From NCBI GenBank assembly GCA_019309115.1, contig JAFDGW010000033.1, forward strand, positions 1 through 35,227: DNA of 35,227 nt, written 5' to 3'. The translations under genes and the position numbers were made by a program. Below, piece after piece: positions 2,000 through 26,770 of the stretch; within the stretch, counting starts at the first letter, position 1; every line of letters starts with the position of its first letter. This DNA is from Deltaproteobacteria bacterium (lineage in GTDB: Bacteria > Desulfobacterota > Syntrophobacteria > Syntrophobacterales > Thermodesulforhabdaceae). Below the pieces are notes generated by a model. It was not told the origin of the DNA, made no database searches, and saw only the letters and a program-made list of their open reading frames with translations.

Positions 2000-2895
2000 A
2001 CTCTGATTATCCTCACTTTCAAATAAAGGTTTCCCCTTACATTGTTGCTGATTTGATAACCCATGTTCTTGAGTCTTATTCTGGTTCCTTCCCGTACTCC
2101 CGGCGGAATTTTGACCGATACAATTTTTTTGACTTCAAAATGAGGCAACATGACTGTGATTTCACCTCCGCTTTCAGCAACCGCAGAGGGTATGGCCAGT
2201 TCCAGAGTAAGTGCTCCCTGTTCCTCGGCAGATTCTTCTATTTTTCTTTGTGTTTTTGAAACAGGTGCCGGGAGTGCGATTCCGGCTTTCTCAGCTATGG
2301 CCTTGCCTGCTTTTTTTGCCAGCTTGCCTATAGCTTTCAGTCCCTTTTTTAGAATTCCCTCGTCGCCAAGAGATTTTTCCCATTGATCCAGGTCGATCCT
2401 CTCGTACTGATTCGCTGTCGAGTTTCCCCTGTTGCGCGCGGAACCATAGCCGAAGGGACCAAAAATGAACCCGCCGAAAAGAATCGTGCGTCCTCCGAAA
2501 AAGATACGGTTAAAGAACTCTTCATCGAACCTTATGCCCATACGAGCCAGCTCTTTCTGTAACTCCCTGAACATATCAACGGTTTCCTGATTCCGGAACA
2601 TTGTGCGAAACAGCTCTTCCTGATTGTAGTAAAATCTACCACCGTAGGTTCCATTGGCGGTTTTTGTGCTTCCGTACATACGGTAGCGATCATATTGTGC
2701 ACGCTTTTCCGGATCTATCAGGACAGCGTAGGCTTCACTGATTTTTTTGAACATTTCTTCGGCTTGGGGATCGCCAGGGTTACGGTCGGGGTGATATTGT
2801 AAGGCAAGGCGTCTGTAAGCTTTTTTTATTTCGTCTTTCGTGGCATCAGGACGAACGCCCAGAATTTTGTAGTAATCTGTGTCTGATGCAAACAT
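1996..2895 (-). CDS. DnaJ-like co-chaperone without zinc finger
   Basis: The J domain fills residues 5-75, with the Hsp70-stimulating HPD at 35-37 and the usual flanking helices. A middle part of about 130 residues rich in Phe/Gly and then Lys/Ala follows. The last 80 residues look like a DnaJ C-terminal substrate-binding unit ([17 protein letters not shown]). The four CxxCxGxG repeats of DnaJ are absent and only one C-terminal beta unit is obvious, so this is a type II/III J-protein, 299 residues, not the canonical DnaJ. The open frame continues upstream to a TTG at 2928, but ATG 2895 has a GAGGGGGG ribosome site and begins at the family's usual distance from the J domain. It follows the radical SAM gene by 41 bases, so the two are probably cotranscribed. 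The stop lies inside a palindromic repeat. Confidence 0.88.
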
Positions 2896-2936
2896 GTAGG
2901 CTATCCCCCCTCTTTGACAGAATTGCAAATTTCAAT

Positions 2937-4721
2937 TTAATCATTTTCGGTGATCGTGCCCAGCAGATCTGAATATTTCTGACATACCCCGCACAGGATA
3001 CATCCATTTTTTGCAGGACAGCCGGGCGTTTCTATTGCATCAAGAGCAGCATTTAACTCAGACCACAGGAAAGTCTTTTTTATGCCGTGATCAATAATTT
3101 CCCATGGGAAAAGCTCATCAGGTTTGCGCTGTCGATAAACCCAGAAATCCGCATTCCATGGTACCTCTTTCATTACGGTGAACCAACCTTTTTGTTCCAG
3201 AACCACTTTTTCTAAGAACCGTCCAACACGCCTATCCCCTCTGGCCAGGAGTGCCTGGACATAGCTCCACTTCGGGACGTCGGCGTAAAATCGAACGTTG
3301 GAAACCCCGGAGAAGCTTCTTTTAAGAAAACGGATTTTGCTTTTGAGACTTTCCACTTCGTCAAAAGGCACCCATTGAAACGGGGTGAACGGCTTGGGCA
3401 CAAAGGAATTTACATTTACAATAATTTCTCCCAAATTACCCAGTCCCTTGGCAACTTTTACCATTTCGTGCTTTAATTGTTTTACCAGAGTAACTATCGC
3501 TTTTATGTCATCATCTGTTTCGGTGGGAAGACCCACCATGAAGTAGAGTTTTAGGTGTTTAATACCATGTTTTGTTAGTTCTGCTACGGCTTCACAGAGC
3601 TGAGCTTCGGTTAGGTGTTTGTTGATGACACGGCGCAGCCGTTCGGATCCTGCTTCTGGGGCTATGGCGACGGCCTGATGGTTTCCGGCCATTAATGCTT
3701 CCATGACCGAGCTTTTCAGGGTGTCTGCTCTGAGGGAAGAAAAGGAAACCTCGCAGGAATGTTCACTAAGGGTTCGGCAAATAGTATCTATTTGAGGGTG
3801 ATCTCCGACAGCAGCACTGACCAGCCCCCATCGCCCCTTGTCATCATCTTCGATTGCACGGGTTTCCAGTATCTTTTTTGCGTCGTGAAATCGAGGTGGC
3901 CGATATATGTAACCCGCCGCGCAAAAACGGCAACCTCTAGCACATCCCCGGCCTATTTCTACAAGATGAAAGTCGCTGAACTCTGTGTCGCCGGTTCGTA
4001 TTACCGAATGTGGTGGATTACAGGATCTAAAATCTGCTTTCTGCACAACTATCTTTTCAGGCAAATCAGCAAAAACAGGTTCTACAGACCTAAGCGTTCC
4101 ATCATCATAGTAAGAATCACGATAGAAGGAGGGAACATAAATTCCCGGAATGGTTTTAGCCAAGGCCTTCAACCATTTCGCTCTATCCCCGTAGGGTGGA
4201 TACTCCTTCACGAAATCCCAGAAAGAGTCCCAAAAATTTTCACCTTCTCCAACAAAGACGAAGTCCATAAAAGGGGCGAGTACTTCAGGGTTCAAAAAGG
4301 ACGTAACCCCCCCAAAGGCCACCAGCGGATGGCTGTGGTCCCGTTGATCGGATCGAAGCGGAATATTGGCCATCTGCATGATTTCCAGCACGTTTGTGTA
4401 ATCAGACTCGAATGGCACAGAGAAAAACAAAAAATCGAAATCTCTCACCGGTCGCTGGCTTTCCAGAGACAGCAGTGATCCTGGCCTTTTGTGGATCAAA
4501 AGCTTCTCATCGGGATCAGGATAAAAAACCCTTTCGCAAACTACATCACTTCTGCGGTTGAACATTCCGTAAACTGATAGGAAACCTAAGTTGGACATCG
4601 CCAGATGGTAACGATTGGGGAAAGCCAAGGCGACGCAGGTCTTTCCGCCCCAATCTTTAACGATGCTCCCTTTTTCCTTGGCTAATCTCTTTTGCAGTCT
4701 TTTTTTGATCTTCCAGCTCAT
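2937..4721 (-). CDS. B12-binding-domain-type radical SAM protein of unknown substrate (TIGR03960-like)
   Basis: The radical SAM [4Fe-4S] motif is C260-x3-C264-x2-C267 (CARGCRFC), followed by AAGYIYRPPR. The first 200 residues have the layout of a cobalamin-binding-like Rossmann domain (VALAFPNRYHLAMSNLG, then FGGVTSFLNPE and FVGEGE), as in uncharacterised proteins that resemble the first half of a fused radical SAM family. The C-terminus ends in a four-cysteine cluster CPAKNGCILCGVC (C568, C574, C577, C580) that could bind a second Fe-S cluster. Such proteins often sit by genes for rRNA or tRNA processing, but the substrate is unknown. The ATG at 4721 lacks a clear Shine-Dalgarno sequence, and TATA-rich DNA lies directly upstream. 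It is first in a pair with the DnaJ-like gene. Confidence 0.85.
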   Translation of the reverse strand: MSWKIKKRLQKRLAKEKGSIVKDWGGKTCVALAFPNRYHLAMSNLGFLSVYGMFNRRSDVVCERVFYPDPDEKLLIHKRPGSLLSLESQRPVRDFDFLFFSVPFESDYTNVLEIMQMANIPLRSDQRDHSHPLVAFGGVTSFLNPEVLAPFMDFVFVGEGENFWDSFWDFVKEYPPYGDRAKWLKALAKTIPGIYVPSFYRDSYYDDGTLRSVEPVFADLPEKIVVQKADFRSCNPPHSVIRTGDTEFSDFHLVEIGRGCARGCRFCAAGYIYRPPRFHDAKKILETRAIEDDDKGRWGLVSAAVGDHPQIDTICRTLSEHSCEVSFSSLRADTLKSSVMEALMAGNHQAVAIAPEAGSERLRRVINKHLTEAQLCEAVAELTKHGIKHLKLYFMVGLPTETDDDIKAIVTLVKQLKHEMVKVAKGLGNLGEIIVNVNSFVPKPFTPFQWVPFDEVESLKSKIRFLKRSFSGVSNVRFYADVPKWSYVQALLARGDRRVGRFLEKVVLEQKGWFTVMKEVPWNADFWVYRQRKPDELFPWEIIDHGIKKTFLWSELNAALDAIETPGCPAKNGCILCGVCQKYSDLLGTITEND

Positions 4722-4855: not shown

Positions 4856-5611
4856 ATGGTTGAAACTTTTATGAGCATGTCTTTAGATGAGGTGATGGAT
4901 CGTATTGAAAGCAAGTACAGGGTAGAAATTGAGCCAGTGAAGATAAACGGCAAAAAATTGAAGCTTTTGCAAATTAAGAACCTTGAAGAGTATGTTGTGT
5001 CACAGATTGAAAAAGAGCATGATCAGAAGAACGATTCGGGGAATGGCTCAGAGCAGGATGTGCTGTATCATTTAATGCACCTTCCATGGTGGGCAAAACT
5101 CTGGGAACCCAGCTTTGTTCTGGCTTACTTCATGGGAAAGCAGCCAGTGATTCCTGGTCAGAGAATACTTGAAATTGGTGCGGGCCTGGGATTTGTTGGC
5201 GTTTTCGCAGCCATGTGCGGTCATGATGTTACGATAAGTGATATCGAAGAAGATGCTCTACTTTTTTGCCGTGCCAATGCGCTACTAAACGGCTGCAGGA
5301 ATGTTCCTGTCATTCGTATCGACTGGAGAATGCCTTTTGCGGGTGAACCCTACGACATGATAATTGGTTCTGAAGTCGTTTATGACCGCAAGACTTACGG
5401 TATTCTTGTCGATTTTCTAGATAATGCCCTCGCACCTAATGGAACTGTGATTCTGGCTAAAAACAAAGATCTTAAGACTCCCCTTTTCTTTCAGGAACTG
5501 GTCAAAAAATTCAAATTCAAGGAAAAAGCCGTAAGACTTTCAGGACCGGAAGGTACTCTGGAAGTGATGCTATACGCGATAAAGAGAAAGGTTGAAAATG
5601 TCCTCTGTTGA
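4856..5611 (+). CDS. Class I SAM methyltransferase, METTL21/FAM86-like (Methyltransf_16)
   Basis: This soluble 251-residue protein has SAM-binding motif I at 105-112 (E-IGAGLG), an acidic motif II residue in ISDIEEDAL, and the GSEVVYD segment that corresponds to the D/E-x-x-Y post-I motif of the METTL21/FAM86 seven-beta-strand protein-lysine methyltransferases. The WWAKLWEPS stretch just before motif I is also typical of that group. A protein lysine or small-molecule target is therefore likely, but which one cannot be told. The start is ATG 4856 with GGAGGGAG seven bases upstream; an in-frame TTG at 4838 precedes that site and is rejected. It is first in a plus-strand operon and overlaps the next gene by 14 bases. 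Confidence 0.75.
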   Translation: MVETFMSMSLDEVMDRIESKYRVEIEPVKINGKKLKLLQIKNLEEYVVSQIEKEHDQKNDSGNGSEQDVLYHLMHLPWWAKLWEPSFVLAYFMGKQPVIPGQRILEIGAGLGFVGVFAAMCGHDVTISDIEEDALLFCRANALLNGCRNVPVIRIDWRMPFAGEPYDMIIGSEVVYDRKTYGILVDFLDNALAPNGTVILAKNKDLKTPLFFQELVKKFKFKEKAVRLSGPEGTLEVMLYAIKRKVENVLC

Positions 5612-6329
5612 TATGTTATGGCTTGACAGTGTAATTCCCGTTGAAATTCATCGACCGGAAGCGCATGAGCCGAAAGGAATTGTTGTTACGCTTCACGGGC
5701 TTTTGAGCTACAGAGGGTCTGAAAAGTTTTTGTTACTGGCTGATCTTCTTTCTTCCGCCGGATTCATCGCCGTAAGATTTGATCAGTTCGGGGCTGGGGA
5801 AAATCTGGAGAGATCTGCACCCACGCTCATAGATGGACGTTTGCAAGACCTTCGAAGCGTAGCTGAGTTTCTAAAAGAAAAATTTGTGGATCGTATTTCT
5901 TCATTGCTTCCTATTTGTCTTCTCGGTTCCAGCTTTGGCGGGTACATCGCATACCTTTATGCTGCAACTTATGGAAATATACAGGCGATTGTTTCCTGGG
6001 CTACACCTTTTGATGTTTCCATGGTTCGGCGCTTTCTTACCGAAGAAAATCCTTTTAGCGGTATACAGAATAAGCGGGATCCTCTGGGACAGCCAGACAG
6101 ACTGTCGATCCTGACATCTTTATCGAATGTAAAAAATGTCCTCGTCTTGCACGGAGTTGACGATGAAATCGTCCCATGGACCGAAGCGCAGATGGTCTAT
6201 GATGCTGTGAGTGATCCAAAAGAGCTCATACTTTTTGATGGTGTGGATCACAGGTTTTCCGACGAAGAGGCAAGACGTAAGGCAGCGGAATTGAGCGTCG
6301 GCTGGTTGGTAAATTGCTGTTCAAAATAG
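5598..6329 (+). CDS. Alpha/beta-fold hydrolase (serine esterase/peptidase type)
   Basis: The 243-residue protein shows a full alpha/beta hydrolase set: oxyanion-hole segment LHGLLSYRGS near 32-41, nucleophile elbow G-S-S112-F-G-G, acid D189 in HGVDDEIVP, and H218 in GVDHRFS. It lacks a signal peptide, so it is cytoplasmic. This arrangement resembles the YqiA/prolyl-oligopeptidase-like esterases (Hydrolase_4); the substrate is unknown. ATG 5598 overlaps the preceding methyltransferase stop, implying translational coupling. The in-frame TTG two codons earlier is less likely. It sits upstream of a serine hydrolase and mpl, so a link to cell-wall turnover is possible but unproven. Confidence 0.82.
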   Translation: MSSVDMLWLDSVIPVEIHRPEAHEPKGIVVTLHGLLSYRGSEKFLLLADLLSSAGFIAVRFDQFGAGENLERSAPTLIDGRLQDLRSVAEFLKEKFVDRISSLLPICLLGSSFGGYIAYLYAATYGNIQAIVSWATPFDVSMVRRFLTEENPFSGIQNKRDPLGQPDRLSILTSLSNVKNVLVLHGVDDEIVPWTEAQMVYDAVSDPKELILFDGVDHRFSDEEARRKAAELSVGWLVNCCSK

Positions 6330-6347
6330 GAACTTCCTGGCTATTCC

Positions 6348-7415
6348 ATGAGCCTGGATGCTTTTATCAAGGAAGCATTGCGGAAAAAAATGTGCACGGC
6401 CGTTGCCGCTGTAATCTTGCGTGGTGGTGAAATTCTGTACGAGCGTTACTCTGGGAATCTGTGGCATAACGGTCCCCGTCTTGAACAGCATCACTTCTTT
6501 GATCTCGCATCGCTAACAAAGCCTGTTGCCACGAGCTCACTGTTTATGTACGCCTATGAGAAAGGAATAATCTCTTTGAATGAAAAACTTTCTGCTTTTT
6601 TCCCTCGTAATTGGCTTAGGCGGGGACACCGTGATATTTCCATTGAAGATCTTTTAAGACACAGATCCGGGTTGCCCGCCTACCGAGCTTACTACGAAAA
6701 ATTTGAAAACATTCGGTGGAAAAGACGCAGAGAAAAATTGGTCAGGGAAATCCTTGATACACCGATTTCACCTGAGAAAAACGAAGTTTACAGCGACCTG
6801 GGCTTCATCCTTCTTGGTTTCATAGCTGAATGCATATATGGAAAGCCGCTGGATGTTGCGTTTGCAGAAGTTTGTAAAGAGTGGGATGTTTTAAATGGCT
6901 TACATTTCGTTTCGCTTAGAGACGGCCGAAATACTTTTCCTAAGGGGAATTACGTGGCTACTTCATTTTGCTCATGGCGTGGGCGACGTCTCATAGGCGA
7001 GGTGGACGATGCAAACTGTTTCAGCCTCGGTGGAGTGGCCGGTCATGCGGGATTGTTTGGAACTGCCCGAAGTATTCAAAAGTGGTTAGCTGACTTGTGG
7101 CGAATATTTAACGGAGAAACCCGATCTTGGTGCTCAAAGAGGACCCTTGATCGATTCTGGTACCAGGAAAAGAAAGGGTCATGGCTGTGTGGTTTTGACA
7201 CACCTTCCGTTGGCACTTCGCTGATTATACCTTATTTTTCACGGCGTAGCGTCGGTCATTATGGATTTACCGGAACATCGTTCTGGATGGATCTTACCGA
7301 TGGGTTTGCGGTTGTCCTACTTACAAATAGGGTTTATTACTTCGGCACCGGGGACGTGATCCGTGAGTTTCGAAAGGAATTTCATAAAAGAGCCAGAGAA
7401 TCCTATGGGAAATAA
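6348..7415 (+). CDS. Serine hydrolase of the beta-lactamase/class C family, no signal peptide
   Basis: The penicillin-binding-fold active site is visible: S55-L-T-K58 (SxxK), Y148-S-D150 at the YxN position, and a late GHYGFTGTSFW segment in place of the K/H-T-G strand. At 355 residues it matches the Beta-lactamase (PF00144) family, which includes esterases, D-aminopeptidases and EstB-like enzymes. The N-terminus (MSLDAFIKEALRKK) is amphipathic and not a secretion signal, so the enzyme should be cytoplasmic, unlike true beta-lactamases and penicillin-binding proteins. It overlaps the start of mpl by 11 bases, which ties it to the muropeptide recycling step. Possible roles are an amidase or esterase on recycled muropeptides; this is inference. 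Confidence 0.82.
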   Translation: MSLDAFIKEALRKKMCTAVAAVILRGGEILYERYSGNLWHNGPRLEQHHFFDLASLTKPVATSSLFMYAYEKGIISLNEKLSAFFPRNWLRRGHRDISIEDLLRHRSGLPAYRAYYEKFENIRWKRRREKLVREILDTPISPEKNEVYSDLGFILLGFIAECIYGKPLDVAFAEVCKEWDVLNGLHFVSLRDGRNTFPKGNYVATSFCSWRGRRLIGEVDDANCFSLGGVAGHAGLFGTARSIQKWLADLWRIFNGETRSWCSKRTLDRFWYQEKKGSWLCGFDTPSVGTSLIIPYFSRRSVGHYGFTGTSFWMDLTDGFAVVLLTNRVYYFGTGDVIREFRKEFHKRARESYGK

Positions 7416-8831: not shown

Positions 8832-9374
8832 ATGGCGAGGATTCTTTTACACACGTGTTGTGGTCCGTGCACTTTTTACCCACTGATGAGGTTGCGCGAA
8901 CAGGGCCATGAAGTAATTGGCTTTTTTTACAATCCGAACATTCATCCTTACATGGAATTTGCTAGAAGGCTTGAAGCTCTCCAAGAAATGGCGTCGGCCA
9001 ATGACTTGAGGTTAATTGTACGGGAAGATTATCCACTGGAAGATTTCATAAGGAATGTGGCGTTCAGGGAGCAAAATAGATGTATTTACTGTTATACGGT
9101 ACGGCTGGAAGCAGCGGCTCGGCTGGCAAAAAAGAGCAAATTTGACGCCTTCACGACCACCTTACTTTACAGCAAGCGTCAGAAGCACGATCTGATACGA
9201 TCCGTCGCCGAAAGCGCAGCAAAGAAGGCTAGGATTTCGTTTTATTATGAGGACTTTCGGGAAGGATGGAAGATCGGACAACAGATGGCAATAGAATCAG
9301 GTATTTATCGCCAGCAATACTGCGGCTGCATCTGGAGTGAAAAAGAACGATTTTATAAAAAACGTCGGCACTGA
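8832..9374 (+). CDS. queH: Epoxyqueuosine reductase QueH
   Basis: QueH (formerly DUF208) performs the last step of queuosine synthesis in tRNA, reducing epoxyqueuosine to queuosine without the cobalamin enzyme QueG. The 180 residues contain the diagnostic cysteines: C9-C10-G-P-C13, the RC84-I-Y-C87-Y pair and a late QYCGC. These bind an Fe-S cluster and a second metal in characterised members. The start ATG lies two bases after the mpl stop. The functional link to mpl is not obvious, so this is probably an operon of convenience. The gene ends eight bases from the convergent zinc-ribbon gene with no visible terminator between them. Confidence 0.95.
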   Translation: MARILLHTCCGPCTFYPLMRLREQGHEVIGFFYNPNIHPYMEFARRLEALQEMASANDLRLIVREDYPLEDFIRNVAFREQNRCIYCYTVRLEAAARLAKKSKFDAFTTTLLYSKRQKHDLIRSVAESAAKKARISFYYEDFREGWKIGQQMAIESGIYRQQYCGCIWSEKERFYKKRRH

Positions 9375-9382
9375 CCGTTTTT

Positions 9383-10156
9383 CTAATCCTGTTTTTCTTT
9401 TTCCGTATCTTCACCTTCTTCGTCTGAACTAAATTCCGAAAAAGCTTTTTCCAGCTCTTCCAGCAACTTTGTATCTTCTTCTATTTCCTCGCTTTCCGAC
9501 AAATCATCAGTGAGCTTCTGTTCATCAATTGCTTCTTTTGTTTCATCTTCGCTGTCGAGATTCAGTATCAAAGTAAGTTCCTCATCAGTTTCCTTCTTTT
9601 CAGTGACCTCCTGCGTGTCATCTTCGGCCTGTGTTGATTCTTCTTCGTAAACCTTTTCAAGATCTTTCAAAAGATCGTTGATTTCTTCATCGGATTCTAT
9701 TGCCAATTCTTCTTCGTGCGAAGGTTCCTCAACAGACTCCGCGGTTTCTGTTAGTTCTTCGATTTTTCCATTTTCGTATGAAATTTCTGTTTCCAGCTCT
9801 TTTATTTTCAGTCCATCCTCTTCGGCTACGACCTCCTCAACTTCCTCCGTGGCTTCTATTGTTTCTTCTGTTTTGATTGTTTCTGATGTTTCCTCCGCTT
9901 CTTCGATGGGAATTTCGAGCTCGTAATCCTCGGTGAGGTCTAGCGTTAACTCTTTTCCAGATTCTTCGTAAGATTCTTCATAATCTTGCATTCCTCTGTC
10001 TGTTTCCTCCACTTTACTTATCCATTTCCAGATAGAGAACTCTCTGTTCCAGCCGTACAGCAGCAATTGCCGTTTCAATTCAGTGAGATCTGCACCGCAT
10101 TTCTTGCACTTGTCCAAATAATCAAAGGAAATGTAATGGCATTTAGGGCATCTCAT
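9383..10156 (-). CDS. Acidic protein with N-terminal zinc ribbon, function unknown
   Basis: The first 24 residues form a zinc ribbon with C3-x2-C6 and C17-x2-C20 (MRCPKC ... CKKCGADL). After about 50 residues the rest of the 257-residue chain is extremely rich in Glu and Asp, with Thr, Ser and Leu, and very few aromatic residues, so it is likely disordered or forms scattered coiled coil. No enzyme motif is visible. ATG 10156 has an AAGGAGG ribosome site; the longer frame to 10204 lies inside rsmE and is rejected. The start overlaps the rsmE stop by 14 bases, so it is last in the dprA-topA-pilD-rsmE operon. It could be a nucleic-acid or ribosome-associated adaptor, but that is a guess. Confidence 0.75.
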   Translation of the reverse strand: MRCPKCHYISFDYLDKCKKCGADLTELKRQLLLYGWNREFSIWKWISKVEETDRGMQDYEESYEESGKELTLDLTEDYELEIPIEEAEETSETIKTEETIEATEEVEEVVAEEDGLKIKELETEISYENGKIEELTETAESVEEPSHEEELAIESDEEINDLLKDLEKVYEEESTQAEDDTQEVTEKKETDEELTLILNLDSEDETKEAIDEQKLTDDLSESEEIEEDTKLLEELEKAFSEFSSDEEGEDTEKEKQD

Positions 10157-10925
10157 GGTTGTCTTCCTCCTTGCATACTCCGAATCCCAGATCACCCCAC
10201 ACAAACTGACATATTGCTGTAAGGCTTACTACGGCTGTTTCGTATCTCAGAACTCTCGTTCCAAACCTCACTGCCACAAAACCAGCTGCTCGGAAGGTCT
10301 CAATTTCTTCCTTCGTCCATCCACTTTCCGGCCCCACGGAAAAGCACAGCCTGCGAACTCTGGAACACTTTCGCGACTTTATCAAATCGATCAACGAAGC
10401 TGTAGCCTTTTCATAGGCTACCAGTTTAACATCGTAAAATTCATCATGAGTAACCAGATTCTGGTCGTATTTTATGTCCGGCAATTTGGTTCTGCCACAC
10501 TGACATACCGCATCGGCAGCGATCCTTCTCCACCTTTCGATTTTGCGTTCTATTTGTTCACCCTTAAGTGAGTATTTGCTCCGCCTGGCCGGAAAAACCA
10601 CAATTTTATTCACGCCCAATTCAGTCGCCTGCCTTATAACTTTTTCCAATTTTTCTGAAGGCGCTAGTGCACACATCAGGGTGATGTGAAGAGGTGATTC
10701 ACCTCGAGGCTCGTTGATCCGGTGGACTTCAGTAACGGTGACGTTCTGTCCGGACACTTTCTGAATCCTGGCCTTGTAAGCTCGACCCCGTTCGTCTCTC
10801 AACTCAATAAGCGTCCCCGGCTTATATTTAAGCACACGGGCAATGTGATGGGACACATCCACCGGTAAAGAAAGACATGACGTCCCCTCTGGGACGAAAG
10901 GCACGAAAAAGATTCTTCTGGTCAT
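10143..10925 (-). CDS. rsmE: 16S rRNA (uracil1498-N3)-methyltransferase
   Basis: RsmE methylates U1498 of 16S rRNA with SAM on assembled 30S subunits. The 260-residue protein has the N-terminal PUA-like domain (LPVDVSHHIARVLKYKPG) and the C-terminal SPOUT knot: ATELGVNKIVVFPARRS, then SVGPESGWTKEE, then FGTRVLRYETA. The second conserved glycine of the usual GPEGG motif is serine here (GPESG). The ATG follows the pilD stop by four bases and has only a weak ribosome site, so translation is likely coupled to pilD. The 3' end overlaps the zinc-ribbon gene. Confidence 0.93.
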   Translation of the reverse strand: MTRRIFFVPFVPEGTSCLSLPVDVSHHIARVLKYKPGTLIELRDERGRAYKARIQKVSGQNVTVTEVHRINEPRGESPLHITLMCALAPSEKLEKVIRQATELGVNKIVVFPARRSKYSLKGEQIERKIERWRRIAADAVCQCGRTKLPDIKYDQNLVTHDEFYDVKLVAYEKATASLIDLIKSRKCSRVRRLCFSVGPESGWTKEEIETFRAAGFVAVRFGTRVLRYETAVVSLTAICQFVWGDLGFGVCKEEDNHEMP

Positions 10926-20716: not shown

Positions 20717-21880
20717 TTATACTTTTGTGTCTTTGGAAACAAAAACTGCTATGGGTTCAACTATACCAACCGTTGACGCAAAATTCCTTAATCGCTGTAT
20801 AGAAACTTTGTTTAATTCGTGTCCTTGTTTCAGTAATAGACGTCCGTCCCTGGATAAAACGTTTGCGGCTGTTACCATTCCTTCTTGGAGCTCTTCCACC
20901 AGAACTTCCCTTTGTTCGTAATTCGTAAGAAACTCTACCACTTTTCCGCAGGCGGTGAGCACTTTCGGATCGTAAACACCCTTTCGTCCCATCATAATCG
21001 CGTAGGCTTCAGGTGCAGAGTGTCCCTTTCCAAGGAGTAGCTCCAGGTCGAGAGCTACCTTGAGAATTCTGGCTTCTAAGGGTATATCGTCGCCTTTGAT
21101 TTCATCTATGGGATGGCCTGATCCGTCGTAATGCTTTTCCTGATAAGCTATGATTTTGGCTATTTCATCCATCCTGGGTATCTTGTTTATTAACCGAGCA
21201 GTAACGGATGGGTGTATCTCCATGATTTGCTTTTCTTCGCCCTCCAAAGGTTCGCCTTTGTAAAATCTCAAGATGGTTTCCTCAGGAAGTAGCAGGCACC
21301 CTAATTGCGATAGCATACCCGCGGTTTCTACTTTCCACGGGTTCTTGATCCCTAGTTCTTGAGCTATCAAAACCGCAAATTTTGTTGCTCTATTTGCTCT
21401 TTCGGAAGCTTCCATGTTACTGAGGAAAAGTAAATCTGTTAAAAGGGCAACGCACCCTCGTAATGTTTTTTCTAGGAGTTCTCGCTCTGCAATAATCAGA
21501 TTGTACTGCCGGACTCCATCTTTCAATGCGTTAATTAGTGTTTCATTAGGACAGGGCTTGGTAAGAAATCGGAAAACGTTTCCGCAATTTACGGCCTCAA
21601 TCGCCGTGTCCAAATCTGCATAACCAGTCAGCATTATCCTAACCGTGTCCGGTGCAATTTCTTTCACTCTGGTTAAAAACTGGATGCCATCCATTATGGG
21701 CATTCTCAGGTCTGCTACCACAACGGCATAAGGACCCCGGCTCTTAATCTTTTCAAGACCCTCCTTTCCACTTTCTGCCGTATCAATGCTAAAATGTTTG
21801 TGCAAAACTCGCTTTATGGCCATTAACACTTTTGGTTCGTCGTCCACAAAAAGTATTTTGGCCTTGCTAGAAACACTCAT
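20717..21880 (-). CDS. Response regulator: receiver plus degenerate HD-GYP-like domain
   Basis: Residues 1-120 are a complete receiver, with acidic pocket D13-D14, phospho-acceptor D57 (VVADLRMP) and K108 (FLTKPC). The C-terminal part, about 150-320, has the HD-GYP layout but with key residues changed: the HD pair is S191-Q192 (LSQLGC), the paired HH is Q247-E248 (YQEKHYDGSGHP), and GYP is GHP. H223 (EIHPSV) remains. Catalysis of cyclic-di-GMP hydrolysis is therefore unlikely; it may bind ligand or act as a protein adaptor. A final domain of about 55 residues (AANVLSRDGRLLLKQGHELN) resembles a short beta module found after such HD domains. Its ATG overlaps the kinase stop as ATGA, so the kinase is the obvious partner. 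Confidence 0.88.
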   Translation of the reverse strand: MSVSSKAKILFVDDEPKVLMAIKRVLHKHFSIDTAESGKEGLEKIKSRGPYAVVVADLRMPIMDGIQFLTRVKEIAPDTVRIMLTGYADLDTAIEAVNCGNVFRFLTKPCPNETLINALKDGVRQYNLIIAERELLEKTLRGCVALLTDLLFLSNMEASERANRATKFAVLIAQELGIKNPWKVETAGMLSQLGCLLLPEETILRFYKGEPLEGEEKQIMEIHPSVTARLINKIPRMDEIAKIIAYQEKHYDGSGHPIDEIKGDDIPLEARILKVALDLELLLGKGHSAPEAYAIMMGRKGVYDPKVLTACGKVVEFLTNYEQREVLVEELQEGMVTAANVLSRDGRLLLKQGHELNKVSIQRLRNFASTVGIVEPIAVFVSKDTKV

Positions 21881-24255
21881 TTAACCTCACCATCCTCGTC
21901 TTGTTGGCTTTTTAAAGGCAGCCTTATAACGAATTCTGTTCCCTTACCTTCCTTAGAATTAAAAAATATTTGCCCGCTATGCCCACGTACCACAATAGCC
22001 TGAGCTATTGCCAGTCCCTGTCCGGTGCCCATTCCTGGATCTTTGGTGGTGAAAAAGGGTTCAAACACTTTGTCCTTTATAGTATCAGGTATTCCAACCC
22101 CGTTGTCAGATATTTTAATTTCACACCAAGGCCCGTTCAGGCTTGTTTCGAGGGTTAATCGCCCCCAGAAGTTACTATTCTTTTCCTTCTTCTCCTGAAT
22201 TGCCTGCAGGGCATTCACAACGAGGTTAAGAAGCACTTGGTTTATTTCTGTGGGAGAACAATAAAGCAGAGGCAATTTGGGGTCCAATTTCAAGCTAACT
22301 TCTGCTATGCGCTTCCATTCATTTTTCGTAAGATTAACTACACTTTGAATTGATTTGTTAATGTCCACCCACTGTCTTTTTGGAGTTAATGGATGAGAAA
22401 AATCTCTGATTGAGGATACAATCTTTTGTATCTGTGTAATACACTCTATACTCTGCTGGATTGCTTGAGGTATTTCAGTAGTCAGAAAATCAATGTCAAT
22501 TTCTTCTTCCGACTTTTTGATGTTTTTGAGAAGTTCCAACCGTCTGGGCGAAGATGGATCCAGACCGCCTAGCTCTTGGTATTGAGATATAATTTTTAAT
22601 AGCTCCGTAAAGCTTTCCTGAATAAAAGGAAGATTGGCGGCAATGCATTGAGCAGGAGAATTTATTTCATGGGCGATTCCTGCGGCCAACGTGCCTATTG
22701 CCTGTAACTTTTGAGAATGCGCAACCTGCATTTCCATATGTTTTTTTTCCGTAATATCGAAAGCGACTATTAGAATTTTGTGTTTTCCTGAGTCTGTCTT
22801 TTTGTACGGGTGAATTAGTACCTCCAAAAAGCTTATACGGCCGTTCAAGTTTTCTGTTTTTATTTCTTTGGAAACACTCTGACCCGTTTCACTTGCCGAT
22901 TTAACATACTCGGCGATAGGTAGTTCTTTAGTCAAATCTTCCAAGGATGAGCCCACAGCTACACTGGCCCTGATTCCAAAGTAATTTTCAGCTTGGCGGT
23001 TCCACCTGTAAACAATGCCATTCTCGTCTATAGCAATTACAATGGCGGATACGGCATTTATGACAGCTTGGAGTTCGCTGTACATTGCGTTCAATTCATC
23101 CTTGGCTTTTTTGAAAGCAGTAATGTCAGTGTAAGTGCAGAGAGCGCCGTTAAAGTTTCCTTCGGCGTCTTTTAGAGGGGTTACATGGTATATAAAGTGG
23201 CCTTTCAAGATTTCGTGATCAATGGTTTTGCAAATTGTTCTCCCTGCTTTGAGATCATCAGCAATGTCGCAAGGAAGCGGGTTTGCCTTGTGGCAATAAG
23301 TTTCCCAACACGGACAACCTATCAATTCTCTCGGATGTTTATTAAGACGATTGGCAAAAGGTTTATTAATGCGCCTGATGATAAAGTTTTTGTCGATAAG
23401 AGCGATTAAATTAGGCACCGTATCAAAAGTTTGCTCCCACTCCCGCTTGCCCCTTTCTATTATTTCGATAAATTGTTTTTCCGTCGTTACGTCAATTGCA
23501 ATTCCATAAAAGGACAATCTGTCTCCGGGTGGTTTGAGCATGATTTTGCCAATATCGCGAATCCAGCGTACCTCTCCGTTAGCCCTGCGAATTCGATATT
23601 CCCGAACATAGTTGCCGCCTTTTTTCAGTGCCTCAGCCACGGCCGCTTTGGCTTTTCGAAGATCTTCCGATATTATCAAGTGCTTCCATGTAATTCGTTT
23701 TTCTTCAAATTCTCTGGCTGAATATCCAGTAATTTTCTCAATTGCGGAACCGAAAAATTTTACAGACCAATCGCACTCACCTTTGTATATAATAACAGGT
23801 AGCACATTACTGATAATTTTGAGTTCTATTTCTTCCTCTACTAACTGTTCATGAAGGATGCTACATATGTGCAACAAATGACATGCCATTTGGTGGACAT
23901 CTGAAAGTGTCCCTAAGTGAAGGCACTGATCCTGTGAGTTCAATATAGATTCAACCAGTTCCTCAGGATTTGGACTGTATTTTACGGCCCACCTTGGAAG
24001 GTCCAGATCCACGGGGCAATCATATATAATTAATGACTTGGGAGGTTGAATGGCCTGCAACATATTTATAATATCCTGCACCACTATCTTAGAAGGTGGT
24101 ATGTCCAATAGAAATATGGAATCCTCGCTTACAGGAATCTGAATAACTTCGTTAGGGTTGAAGATAAAGAAAATCGAATGACCCCGCTTTTTGAACTCAT
24201 CTTTCCATTGTCTTAGCTCGCTTTTTTCTCGCGACGTAAATACGTAAAAGTGCAT
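21877..24255 (-). CDS. Cytoplasmic multi-PAS sensor histidine kinase
   Basis: The 792-residue protein has no membrane segment. In order: an N-terminal region of about 110 residues that looks like a degenerate receiver ([18 protein letters not shown]); PAS/PAC 1 at about 145-260 ([17 protein letters not shown]); PAS 2 at about 275-385 with five cysteines C314, C316, C321, C329 and C342; PAS 3 at about 390-505; then HisKA with phospho-acceptor H529 ([13 protein letters not shown]); and HATPase_c with N-box [17 protein letters not shown] and [10 protein letters not shown]. The cysteine cluster in PAS 2 suggests metal, heme or redox sensing. The signal is unknown. It follows the LOG-like gene by 15 bases and is coupled to the response regulator. 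Confidence 0.92.
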
Positions 24256-24270
24256 GACCAGCCTTCCTTT

Positions 24271-24747
24271 CTAGGAAATCTTTGAGAATAACATTTCTAC
24301 GGCCTGACTAGGTGTTTCTGCAGTCCTAAGGTTCGGCAGGTTGCAAGGAGGATTTAGAGCAACGACAGGTTTTCCCATTTTCAGTGCAAGCGCCATTTCT
24401 GAAACCGTTCCATAGCTTCCGCCCACAGCGATAAGGCCGTCCGATGCCTGCGCGATGATAGCGTTGCGAGCATGTCCCATGTTCGTGGCTATGGGGATTT
24501 TTATGTAGGGATTGGCCGAATTTTTATCGGGGCCGGGAAGAATCCCTACGGTCATACCATCTGCTTCTGTCGCTCCCTTTGCTGCGGCTTCCATAACTCC
24601 ACCAAGACCGCCACATATCAGAATTGCGCCGCGCAAAGCGATAAGTTTGCCCACTTCATAGGCCATTTTTGACTCACTTTTACCAACTCTGCCACCACCA
24701 ATTACTCCAATCACAGGCAGCCTATCCTTCATTCCTGCCACCCCCAT
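24271..24747 (-). CDS. LOG-like Rossmann protein (TIGR00725 family)
   Basis: The 158-residue protein has the SLOG/lysine-decarboxylase-like fold of TIGR00725: VIGVIGGGRVG near the start, CGGLGGVMEAAAKGA, then GHARNAIIAQASDGLIAVGGSYGTVSE. The GGxxGxxxE loop and the GGxGTxxE loop (here GGSYGTVSE) resemble the nucleotide-binding motifs of LOG cytokinin-activating phosphoribohydrolases, but this branch is less characterised. No enzyme role can be assigned with certainty. The start is either 24747 or the internal ATG 24732; both have purine-rich upstream sequence. The gene overlaps the pcm stop, so translation is coupled. Confidence 0.82.
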   Translation of the reverse strand: MGVAGMKDRLPVIGVIGGGRVGKSESKMAYEVGKLIALRGAILICGGLGGVMEAAAKGATEADGMTVGILPGPDKNSANPYIKIPIATNMGHARNAIIAQASDGLIAVGGSYGTVSEMALALKMGKPVVALNPPCNLPNLRTAETPSQAVEMLFSKIS

Positions 24748-25385
24748 TTTCCTATCAGATCAACAAACCGAACTCCTCCGAGAGATGTCTTCCGTATTCC
24801 TTCCGGCACCCGTTCGATCAGCAGAAGATCCTGTGTTATGCGGTCACCTACGGGAATTACAAACCTTGCTCCCATGGCAAGCTGATCGACGAGAGGTTGA
24901 GGAACCTTTGGTGCCGCAGCGGTTACAATAATACCATCGAAAGGGGCTTCCTCAGGCCAGCCCAAAGTGCCATCTCCAACCCGGTATTCAATATTTTTAT
25001 ACCCTAGTTTGTCCAAAGTTTCTTTGGCCCTGTACAACAATGCCGGAATGCGTTCGATCGTGTAAACCCTGTCACACAGTTCCGCCAGAATTGCCGTCTG
25101 GTAACCAGAACCTGTTCCGAGTTCCAGTACCTTTTCGCTTCCTTTAAGACGCAGGGCTTCAGTCATAAGGGCAACTATGTAAGGTTGAGAAATTGTTTGT
25201 TTTTCTCCTATGGGGAGGGGGTGATCTTCGTAGGCTTGCCCGCGCAACGATTCTTCCACAAAAAGGTGGCGAGGCACCTTTCTCATCGCTCTTAAGACCC
25301 TGCTATCCTTGATCCCCCTTCCAGCAATCTGGACATCTACCATCTTCTGCCGAGCTTTTTCGTAATCCACATCTCTTTTCCACAT
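24729..25385 (-). CDS. pcm: Protein-L-isoaspartate O-methyltransferase
   Basis: Pcm methylates isoaspartyl residues in damaged proteins with SAM, starting their repair. The 218-residue chain shows the family's ARQKMVDVQIAGRGI opening, the active-site GEKQTISQPYIVALM, motif I VLELGTGSGYQTA, and the later GVRFVDLIGKWGW end. ATG 25385 has AGGA eight bases before it and matches the family start; the longer frame to 25409 overlaps the previous gene and lacks a ribosome site. It sits inside a dense six-gene operon downstream of ahbAB. Confidence 0.94.
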   Translation of the reverse strand: MWKRDVDYEKARQKMVDVQIAGRGIKDSRVLRAMRKVPRHLFVEESLRGQAYEDHPLPIGEKQTISQPYIVALMTEALRLKGSEKVLELGTGSGYQTAILAELCDRVYTIERIPALLYRAKETLDKLGYKNIEYRVGDGTLGWPEEAPFDGIIVTAAAPKVPQPLVDQLAMGARFVIPVGDRITQDLLLIERVPEGIRKTSLGGVRFVDLIGKWGWQE

Positions 25386-25395
25386 GGCCGTTATC

Positions 25396-25764
25396 CTAAC
25401 TCTTTCCATTATTTTTACCGTCGTATTTTGTTATGTACCATCGGCAAAAAGCCATTATAACCCGTGACTTTGCGTCTCCACGGATCAACCCCCTCACAAA
25501 TTCGAATAAATCTCCGTGAAAAGACTGGGCAAGCTCTTTGATGTCGCTCGTTTCAAAAAATCTAGCGAGTATTTCCTTAGCCTGTTGTGATGGGCTGGAA
25601 AACAAGAATTCACGTGGATCCTTTGGTTCAATAAAGGGATCCCAGTTTTCATAACCCATTTTCAATATTCTCTGCTGCCCTCTCTTGGACATGGATTCAA
25701 AAATTGCCCGCTTCCGACGTTCATATTCCTCTCTATCTACCTGGTCTTTAATGGAATTTCCCAT
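25396..25764 (-). CDS. Small conserved-looking protein of unknown function
   Basis: I do not recognise this 122-residue protein. It is predicted to be soluble and helical, with a basic N-terminal part (REEYERRKRAIFESMSKRGQ), a Trp/Pro segment (ENWDPFIEPKDPREF) and an aromatic C-terminal part (VIMAFCRWYITKYDG). It has no signal peptide or membrane segment, and a single cysteine. Its ribosome site, GAGGAGG, lies within the codons for the Glu-rich tail of AhbAB, and its ATG is one base beyond the ahbAB stop, so it is surely translated with that gene. A role near heme synthesis is possible from context only. Confidence 0.7.
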   Translation of the reverse strand: MGNSIKDQVDREEYERRKRAIFESMSKRGQQRILKMGYENWDPFIEPKDPREFLFSSPSQQAKEILARFFETSDIKELAQSFHGDLFEFVRGLIRGDAKSRVIMAFCRWYITKYDGKNNGKS

Positions 25765-25765
25765 T

Positions 25766-26770
25766 TTATTCCTCCTCTTCCCAGAAAAGTTTCAGGCGGA
25801 TTTTTTTGAATTCTTTTGTGCTAAAAAGAACCTTGTGCTCCGGTATTTCTATTTTCTCTGCCAGTTTTTTTGCAAACTTACGGCATTCATCAAAGTTTCG
25901 ACCATGTATCATTGCGTACAGGTTGTAAGGCCATTCGGGATGGGATGGTCTAAAATAGCAGTGGCTTACTTCGGCATGGGCGGCAAGCTTCATACCCGCC
26001 TCGTCTATCCTGTCTTCAGGGCATAACCAGACCACCATTCCATTTGCCACAAAACCCGCCTGTCTGTGATTCAGAACCGCTGCAAATCGCCGAATCCAGC
26101 CTAGCTGAATCCAGTTCGTTAGAGTGGATATGAGACTTTCTTCTGTCATTGCCAGTTTTTCTGCCAGGAAGCGAAATGGAAACCGAGTAAGAGGGAGGTC
26201 CTCCTGGAGATGCCGCACAATCTTTATGTTTTTTTTCGTGAGGGGAAAGCTATGAGTTGATCTGGAAGGGTTTAAAGCATTATCTCCGATAGTGCCTTCT
26301 TTGACAGTGTCACCTTCATCCTCCAGCACATCAAGAACCACGGCCAGCTTGAATTTTTTGATCGCAGGCAAGATCAAAAAAGGCCAGCCTCCAGCCCGAC
26401 TTGCCAGTTTTGCAACTAAGGATTTTAGGTTTTCTCCTGGAGGAACCGCGATAGTAAACCAGATATTATACTTGCACGGGCGCAGATAATTATGGCTTAC
26501 CCCGGGATATCTGTTTATTTCCATAGCCGCTCGCTCGATTTCCCCTTCAGGAACAGCCATGGCCACCAGAGAGCTTTCATATCCCAGCGCTCCTGTATTA
26601 AATATCGCGCTTATCTGGCGCACTATGCCATTTTTCTTCAGCCTTTCTATGCGCTGCATGACTTCGCCTTCCGAAATATGCAGCCTTGCACCCAGTACCT
26701 CAAAGGGTCGCACCGTTACGGGGAAAGATTTCTGTATCAAATTTAGTAGCAGGCGATCAGTCCTATCCAT
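25766..26770 (-). CDS. ahbA-ahbB: Fused siroheme decarboxylase, AhbA-AhbB
   Basis: Siroheme decarboxylase removes two acetate carboxylates from siroheme to give didecarboxysiroheme in the alternative heme pathway of sulfate reducers and archaea. The 334-residue chain holds two Lrp/AsnC-like units. Residues 1-150 match AhbA (IVRQISAIFNTGALGY; GVSHNYLRPCKYNIWFTIAVPP). Residues about 180-330 match AhbB (GWIRRFAAVLNHRQAGF; AEVSHCYFRPSHPEWPYNLY). The acidic linker DEDEGDTV-like region lies near 150-180 (VLEDEGDTVKEG). In Desulfovibrio these are separate subunits; here one gene supplies both, like NirD-NirL fusions. No ahbC or ahbD is nearby. It heads a six-gene minus-strand operon; a regulator of the Lrp family is excluded because both halves lack a free HTH-only architecture and match decarboxylase motifs. 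Confidence 0.88.
   Translation of the reverse strand: MDRTDRLLLNLIQKSFPVTVRPFEVLGARLHISEGEVMQRIERLKKNGIVRQISAIFNTGALGYESSLVAMAVPEGEIERAAMEINRYPGVSHNYLRPCKYNIWFTIAVPPGENLKSLVAKLASRAGGWPFLILPAIKKFKLAVVLDVLEDEGDTVKEGTIGDNALNPSRSTHSFPLTKKNIKIVRHLQEDLPLTRFPFRFLAEKLAMTEESLISTLTNWIQLGWIRRFAAVLNHRQAGFVANGMVVWLCPEDRIDEAGMKLAAHAEVSHCYFRPSHPEWPYNLYAMIHGRNFDECRKFAKKLAEKIEIPEHKVLFSTKEFKKIRLKLFWEEEE

Follow-up and report, generated by a model that had tools for sequence, protein, structure and literature searches.

A conserved response regulator with a degenerate, SQ-type HD-GYP domain predicted to lack cyclic-di-GMP phosphodiesterase activity

The window, which is the whole stretch of DNA analysed (35,227 nucleotides from a bacterium of the Thermodesulforhabdaceae), possesses on its reverse strand an intact open reading frame at 20717..21880 which encodes a response regulator of 387 aa. 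By Pfam, it is composed of a receiver domain (PF00072, residues 9-119, 21524..21856, E 2e-22) followed by an HD_5/HD-GYP domain (PF13487, residues 146-307, 20960..21445) and a C-terminal extension of about 65 aa (20720..20917) which is common to 19 aligned relatives. The HD_5 score of 120 bits (E 9.9e-35) stands so far above the cut-off of 27.2 that the HD-GYP fold is not assigned by chance, and no HDOD domain (PF08668) was found in the protein by Pfam at E 0.01. The receiver retains D13, D14, the phospho-acceptor D57, T85 and K108, the residues of a functional receiver. In the HD-GYP domain, the HD motif is replaced by S191-Q192 (21305..21310), the HH motif by Q247-E248 (21137..21142) and GYP by G255-H256-P257 (21110..21118). 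A first-pass annotation made from the letters alone had named this frame and strand, the intact receiver and the three exchanges at precisely these residues, and all of them were found as described. Alignment also placed R161 (21398..21400) at a further metal-ligand position and revealed a shortened stretch, residues 278-302 (20975..21049), at which canonical domains and the receptor DvhD carry R-x-Y-R. A single-sequence AlphaFold2 model of the regulator was discarded (pLDDT 41, pTM 0.26), and PADLOC matched nothing in the window.

The start of the regulator gene overlaps the stop of a histidine kinase gene (21877..24255, reverse strand) by 4 bases (ATGA). The kinase, recognised by Pfam and motif strings, has 792 aa with three PAS stretches, an H-box at residues 525-532, and H-, N- and G-box strings present. 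Its residues 1-130 align poorly with the receivers of the hybrid kinases at two related loci (L091 and L095); this part, seemingly without the acidic residues of a receiver, is possibly a degenerate one. Upstream of the kinase on the same strand are a SLOG/TIGR00725 gene (24271-24747) and a PCMT gene (24729-25409). L087, a locus from the same family as the window, repeats the order with both genes ahead of the kinase, and a conserved order of PCMT, SLOG, kinase and SQ regulator is possible. The same strand also carries, at 25766-26770, a fused AhbA-AhbB siroheme decarboxylase of 334 aa, in which the AhbA match (residues 5-148) and the AhbB match (residues 184-327) are both over their cut-offs.

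The metal ligands of PmGH are listed as E185, H189, H221, D222, H250, H276, H277 and D305 (PMC4159591). PmGH itself was outside the alignment, its ligand list being taken from that report, and E185 was located from the spacing, four residues before H189. By the alignment, six of the eight ligands are replaced in the window regulator: H189 by R161, H221 by S191, D222 by Q192, H276 by Q247, H277 by E248 and D305 by L277. The same letter stands at the other two positions, E157 for E185 and H223 for H250; within the 55-member SQ clade described below, the former position is E in 41/55 and the latter H in 47/55. The first annotation had left room for another intact HD in register, and none was found when the regulator was aligned to canonical HD-GYP domains. 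Single mutation of any PmGH ligand save E185 and D305 is described as abolishing activity (PMC4159591). According to the same report, RpfG is without the E185 and H189 ligands. The loss of H189 alone would therefore not settle inactivity, unlike the combined loss of HD and HH in the window regulator, which should. Compared with HD-GYP phosphodiesterases, the fold is present whereas the metal ligands and GYP are not. Judged from its sequence, the regulator is almost certainly a real and conserved protein which is inactive as a cyclic-di-GMP enzyme. The earlier prediction that it should not hydrolyse cyclic-di-GMP is well supported by the loss of HD and HH, and DvhD, another SQ-type domain, is reported to be inactive (PMC13090378).

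Homologues of at least 170 bits were found in 19 genomes among 40 relatives, the next score being 51. All 19 proteins, when aligned, share the S, Q, G and C of the LSQ(L/I)GC motif as well as the first residue of QE. A profile search gave matches of at least 200 bits in 41 of 395 sampled genomes of the window's phylum, and 55 distinct fetched proteins reach at least 200 bits against the family profile. Among these 55, S occupies the HD position in 54, the following residue is Q in 51, and the first HH position is Q in all. Proteins scoring below 200 bits possess HD/HH or are degenerate in other ways, and the group defined by motif and the group defined by score are the identical 55 proteins, hereafter the SQ clade. 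Of 182 core columns, Q247 is one of the four that are fully conserved (rank 1), while S191 ranks 9th, Q192 24th, R161 33rd and H223 37th. E248 (89th) and the GYP tyrosine position (156th, Y in 1/55) are drifting. Conservation across the clade reaches 93-100% at the S191, Q192 and Q247 positions, a sign that the pocket may still be used and be more than a scaffold.

Relatives also occur in a second phylum, taken as Pseudomonadota because the central genome of the sample came from a Pseudomonas record. In this sample 31 of 398 genomes matched with an E value no higher than 1e-35, and residues and neighbours were counted in 20 stretches of the 33 matches. The first H of HD is missing in 19/20 stretches (L225 keeps HD) and Q stands at the first HH position in 19/20, with more variation at the S (S/C/A/I) and Q (Q/E/D/P/G) positions. 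No relative was found when viral contigs were searched with the family alignment. A whole-protein query of genome contigs gave 11 loci, all of which match over the receiver only, and in the eight genomes carrying them nothing scored above 72 bits.

The PDB matches to the HD region of the window regulator at E 0.001 were V-cGAP3 and two entries of DvhD (9rbz and 9rc0). DvhD of Desulfovibrio vulgaris is reported to have SQ for HD and MN for HH, to bind cyclic-di-GMP independently of metal (about 0.1 micromolar, with a thermal shift of 14-22 degrees), and not to hydrolyse it (PMC13090378). Contacts at the canonical site are described for Y621, which is the GYP tyrosine, R650 and Y652; R653 was mutated, R650, Y652 and R653 form the R-x-Y-R stretch, and L577 clamps a base (PMC13090378). 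DvhD resembles the window regulator in its HD-GYP fold, in SQ for HD, and in the loss of HH and of the D305 position. It differs in being a membrane dCache-PAS receptor with MN at HH in which GYP and R-x-Y-R are kept, in belonging to a separate clade, and in its reported cyclic-di-GMP binding (PMC13090378).

Proteins in which S replaces the H of HD and M the first H of HH were designated DvhD-like; among 30 loci ten such proteins all have the R, Y and R of the stretch, nine of them with the GYP tyrosine. In two sisters of this group (L167 and L175) HD reads CN and HH reads KY or KN, a further degenerate type. The R650 position is R in 49 of 59 canonical domains (gap in 9, other in 1) and a gap in 54/55 SQ clade proteins, in which Y652, R653 and Y621 are not conserved either. 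The length from the D305 position to YDP has a median of 26 in the SQ clade against 32 in the 59 canonical domains, and is 30-31 in 11 DvhD-group domains. The SQ clade also carries three extra residues in the segment leading from the HD position to H223. Of the remaining DvhD contacts, all 55 SQ clade proteins share L577, and at the M646 position most (44/55) have a conservative L. K582 and E668 are conserved neither in the SQ clade nor in canonical domains, so their loss says nothing; Y523 and K520 were outside the compared fragment. By the numbering in PMC4159591, the substrate residues of PmGH (R314 and K317) follow D305 by 9 and 12 residues. R650 and R653 of DvhD have this same spacing from the D305-equivalent position, so both pairs are probably in the same stretch. 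It appears that the SQ clade has lost the metal site together with most of the nucleotide grip, and DvhD the metal site only. The window regulator probably no longer recognises cyclic-di-GMP at the old site, and the mechanism of DvhD probably does not carry over to the SQ clade.

A tree was constructed from 22 of the 55 SQ clade domains and 22 of the 59 canonical domains, both taken at random, with all 26 others; second-phylum sequences were excluded. The alignment of 142 rows was reduced to 140 by dropping domains under 120 aa or duplicates, and the SQ and HH columns were excluded. The 22 SQ clade members occupy one side of a branch with support 100/97. The DvhD group likewise forms one side of a branch (100/99), far from the SQ clade, and sits among canonical domains (97/95). 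On a quick tree, forcing the SQ clade and DvhD into one group was 30 log units worse with p-AU 0.068, which is above 0.05, and a single origin of the SQ exchange is thus marginally disfavoured. Among HD-GYP domains, SQ has probably replaced HD on two separate occasions, in one lineage that has the nucleotide-gripping stretch and in another that lacks it. It had been asked at first annotation whether such domains form a recognised inactive subgroup: one published SQ-type domain does exist, namely DvhD, but it falls in the other clade.

In the tree the SQ clade was grouped with NosR-type regulators at 93/87, and hence not firmly. This branch also holds a Pseudomonas YN-type protein and an HE-type pair from the window's phylum. 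The HD and HH motifs of the NosR-type relatives are HG/QY in Burkholderia stagnalis, HE/QD in Vibrio (a long branch), and AQ/QF and AE/QF in Pseudoalteromonas. NosR-type regulators (NF053512) share with the window regulator the succession of receiver, HD-GYP domain and C-terminal extension, several being degenerate, and in four fetched plasmid-borne ones the HH motif begins with Q as in the SQ clade. The SQ clade differs from them by the shorter loop and by the neighbouring receiver-HDOD (REC-HDOD) gene of most members. Against NF053512, with a cut-off of 400, the window regulator scored 254.3 bits and five scanned SQ proteins 233 to 264 bits, while five scanned non-SQ relatives, one of them canonical (L132), exceeded it with 467 to 588 bits. 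Because the SQ proteins miss the cut-off which non-SQ relatives pass, the SQ clade is not called NosR and appears to be a divergent sister of the NosR-type regulators. At the window, the adjoining kinase expected beside NosR is present and the FIST (NosP) sensor is absent.

Several degenerate relatives are described in the literature. NosR is described as degenerate, and its authors in B. pseudomallei hypothesise that it controls a bona fide enzyme (PMC12570481). HnoD of Shewanella oneidensis is, like the window regulator, a degenerate HD-GYP response regulator, described as having no phosphodiesterase activity (PMC6335343, PMC8846402), and is reported to suppress HnoB through direct interaction (PMC6335343). 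This likeness is by description only, and HnoD acts on an EAL enzyme, HnoB, whereas the window genome has no EAL match. PA2572 of Pseudomonas aeruginosa is an inactive receiver-HD-GYP protein with YN instead of SQ, whose receiver is reported to contact a chemoreceptor (PMC3411652, PMC3774798). Its YN-GYP domain is described as restoring a mutant phenotype when overexpressed, and as giving, on its own, no two-hybrid signal with any protein tried (PMC3411652). The latter result makes contact via the HD-GYP domain somewhat less likely in this relative. L187, the YN-type protein from a Pseudomonas genome in the 93/87 branch, appears by its motif to be the ortholog of PA2572. The HDOD response regulators (PF08668) such as DVU0330 also carry an HD-fold output on a receiver, with no activity on cyclic-di-GMP found (PMC4114195). 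They are a separate family from the window regulator, yet they are co-encoded with the SQ clade.

Gene context was analysed for 47 SQ clade genes in 46 stretches, a non-independent sample taken from search hits with near relatives included. A REC-HDOD gene lies immediately upstream on the same strand, within 200 bases, in 33/47 and within 2.5 kb in 34/47, the HDOD identity being confirmed with Pfam on three. Thirteen have no HDOD gene within 2.5 kb, at least one of which (L106) is cut by the contig end. A kinase gene lies upstream on the same strand in 34/47 and on either side within 3 kb in 35/47. In the second phylum, a full adjacent REC-HDOD was found in 13/20 stretches, with L216 and L224 split or weak. 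Among control loci of NosR-type or canonical relatives, 6/15 also have an HDOD gene nearby, none receiver-tagged, and the HDOD link may therefore be older than the SQ clade. A special role of HD ligands in the partner HDOD was considered and dropped: nearly all 34 partners have them (L118 excepted), but the 6/6 stand-alone HDODs near control genes and two in the window genome have the same ligands, which are thus ordinary.

Neither an HDOD nor a FIST neighbour was found at the window locus or at L087-L089, the three other SQ-bearing members of the window's family that were read, and the kinase alone is kept in these; a fourth family member (G001) gave no SQ match. A search for recurring neighbours gave one further cluster in at least three loci, a FIST-type ORF of L103-L106. 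In L103 it is a FIST (NosP-type) gene by Pfam (2426-3616), upstream of the kinase in a set of kinase, HDOD and SQ genes; the ORFs of L104-L106 are homologous to it, the Pfam scan covering L103 only. By this ORF, part of the SQ clade is tied to nitric-oxide signalling.

The window genome (assembly 96.4% complete, 72 contigs) has six HD_5 matches, of which the window regulator alone is degenerate, the other five retaining HD and HH. There are 7 GGDEF matches (six strong, one marginal), 6 PilZ matches and no match to the EAL domain. To judge by the GGDEF and PilZ matches, cyclic-di-GMP is probably both synthesised and sensed by this bacterium, and the five canonical HD-GYP proteins would be left to degrade it.

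The best explanation, with a probability of roughly 50%, is that the regulator is a two-component output in which a conserved pseudoenzyme HD-GYP domain makes a phosphorylation-switched protein contact. The overlapping PAS kinase would phosphorylate D57, and phosphorylation would alter how the HD-GYP-fold domain and the C-terminal extension are presented to a partner protein. Control by phosphorylation is plausible because the receiver is intact and the kinase gene overlaps by 4 bases. The HD-GYP domain itself would neither cleave nor canonically bind cyclic-di-GMP, since the residues of the di- or trinuclear metal centre and the R-x-Y-R stretch are missing; this reading of site, pocket and loop comes from the alignment. 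The ancestral partner, to go by gene order, was most likely the REC-HDOD regulator encoded alongside in most relatives. In the window's family, whose members as far as read have no such neighbour, candidates for this role are the adjoining kinase, any of the five canonical HD-GYP proteins, or an HDOD protein whose gene lies elsewhere. The first-pass annotation had proposed that the output is binding or protein contact. Binding of cyclic-di-GMP is weakened by the shortened R650/Y652 stretch and the unconserved Y621, and contact is favoured, though still by inference, because of the HDOD neighbours and the published degenerate relatives. A bolder form of this idea, which is doubtful as a whole, takes kinase, REC-HDOD and the pseudo-HD-GYP regulator as a widespread module forming a phosphorylation-gated heteromeric switch with its own ligand other than cyclic-di-GMP. 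One HD-fold output would carry HD ligands and the other the conserved polar set (R, S, Q, H, Q), and the window's family would be reduced to kinase and pseudo-HD-GYP regulator.

Protein contact could also be of the kind known from HnoD, a special case with a different partner, in which the inactive domain would pair with a canonical HD-GYP enzyme and inhibit or activate it according to phosphorylation state. The HnoD precedent (PMC6335343, PMC8846402) is consistent with it, and so is a genome that has five canonical HD-GYP proteins but lacks any EAL match. It also agrees with the 6/47 neighbourhoods where a same-strand gene for a canonical HD-GYP regulator lies no more than 1 kb away. But the other 41 have none, the window gene adjoins no canonical HD-GYP gene, and HnoB, the known target of HnoD, is an EAL enzyme, so such a modulator is regarded as unlikely. 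A receptor which, as DvhD, binds cyclic-di-GMP without metal in the old active site and thereby switches a dimer is improbable. Although the SQ-bearing DvhD entries are among the PDB matches besides V-cGAP3, L577 is retained throughout and the messenger is likely present, R650 is missing in nearly the whole clade, conservation is lacking at Y652, R653 and Y621, and the tree separates the two clades, the forced union being only marginally disfavoured. It is similarly improbable that the pocket has been re-tooled for another small ligand (an anion, nucleotide or metabolite) held by R161, S191, Q192, H223 and Q247. The conservation ranks of these residues agree with it, but could also reflect structural packing, and in the second phylum other residues occur at the S and Q positions as well. 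The loss of catalytic residues might finally mean a decaying, functionless gene or residual catalysis with other chemistry, which is very unlikely. Against decay, the frame is intact, the substitutions are conserved over many families, relatives exist in two phyla, and pS exceeds pN in 4/4 close pairs (for example 0.50 vs 0.07, HD part). Phosphorylation-switched protein contact is the reading preferred here.

No publication recognised as dealing with the window's own SQ clade was found in the literature search, nor was the pairing of REC-HDOD and SQ-type genes described in the literature searched on HDOD and HD-GYP regulators, both searches covering few subscription journals. Many bacteria keep an SQ-type regulator, usually beside a second regulator of related fold (REC-HDOD), and this recurring pairing offers a concrete candidate partner for two output domains. 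The best NCBIfam model for the window regulator is 'c-di-GMP phosphodiesterase, NosR family', below its cut-off, and the degenerate Vibrio relative is annotated 'HD domain-containing phosphohydrolase'. Automatic annotation would probably label SQ proteins as HD-domain phosphohydrolases or cyclic-di-GMP phosphodiesterases, which would inflate the tally of cyclic-di-GMP enzymes in any genome carrying a member of the SQ clade.

In several relatives, short receiver proteins follow the SQ gene (for example 6681-7343 in L090 and 8371-8922 in L091); they carry about 80 extra residues, and in the three scanned Pfam recognises the receiver only. One locus, L120, has two SQ-type regulators (5422-6645 and 9328-10632) about 2.7 kb apart with a kinase between them.
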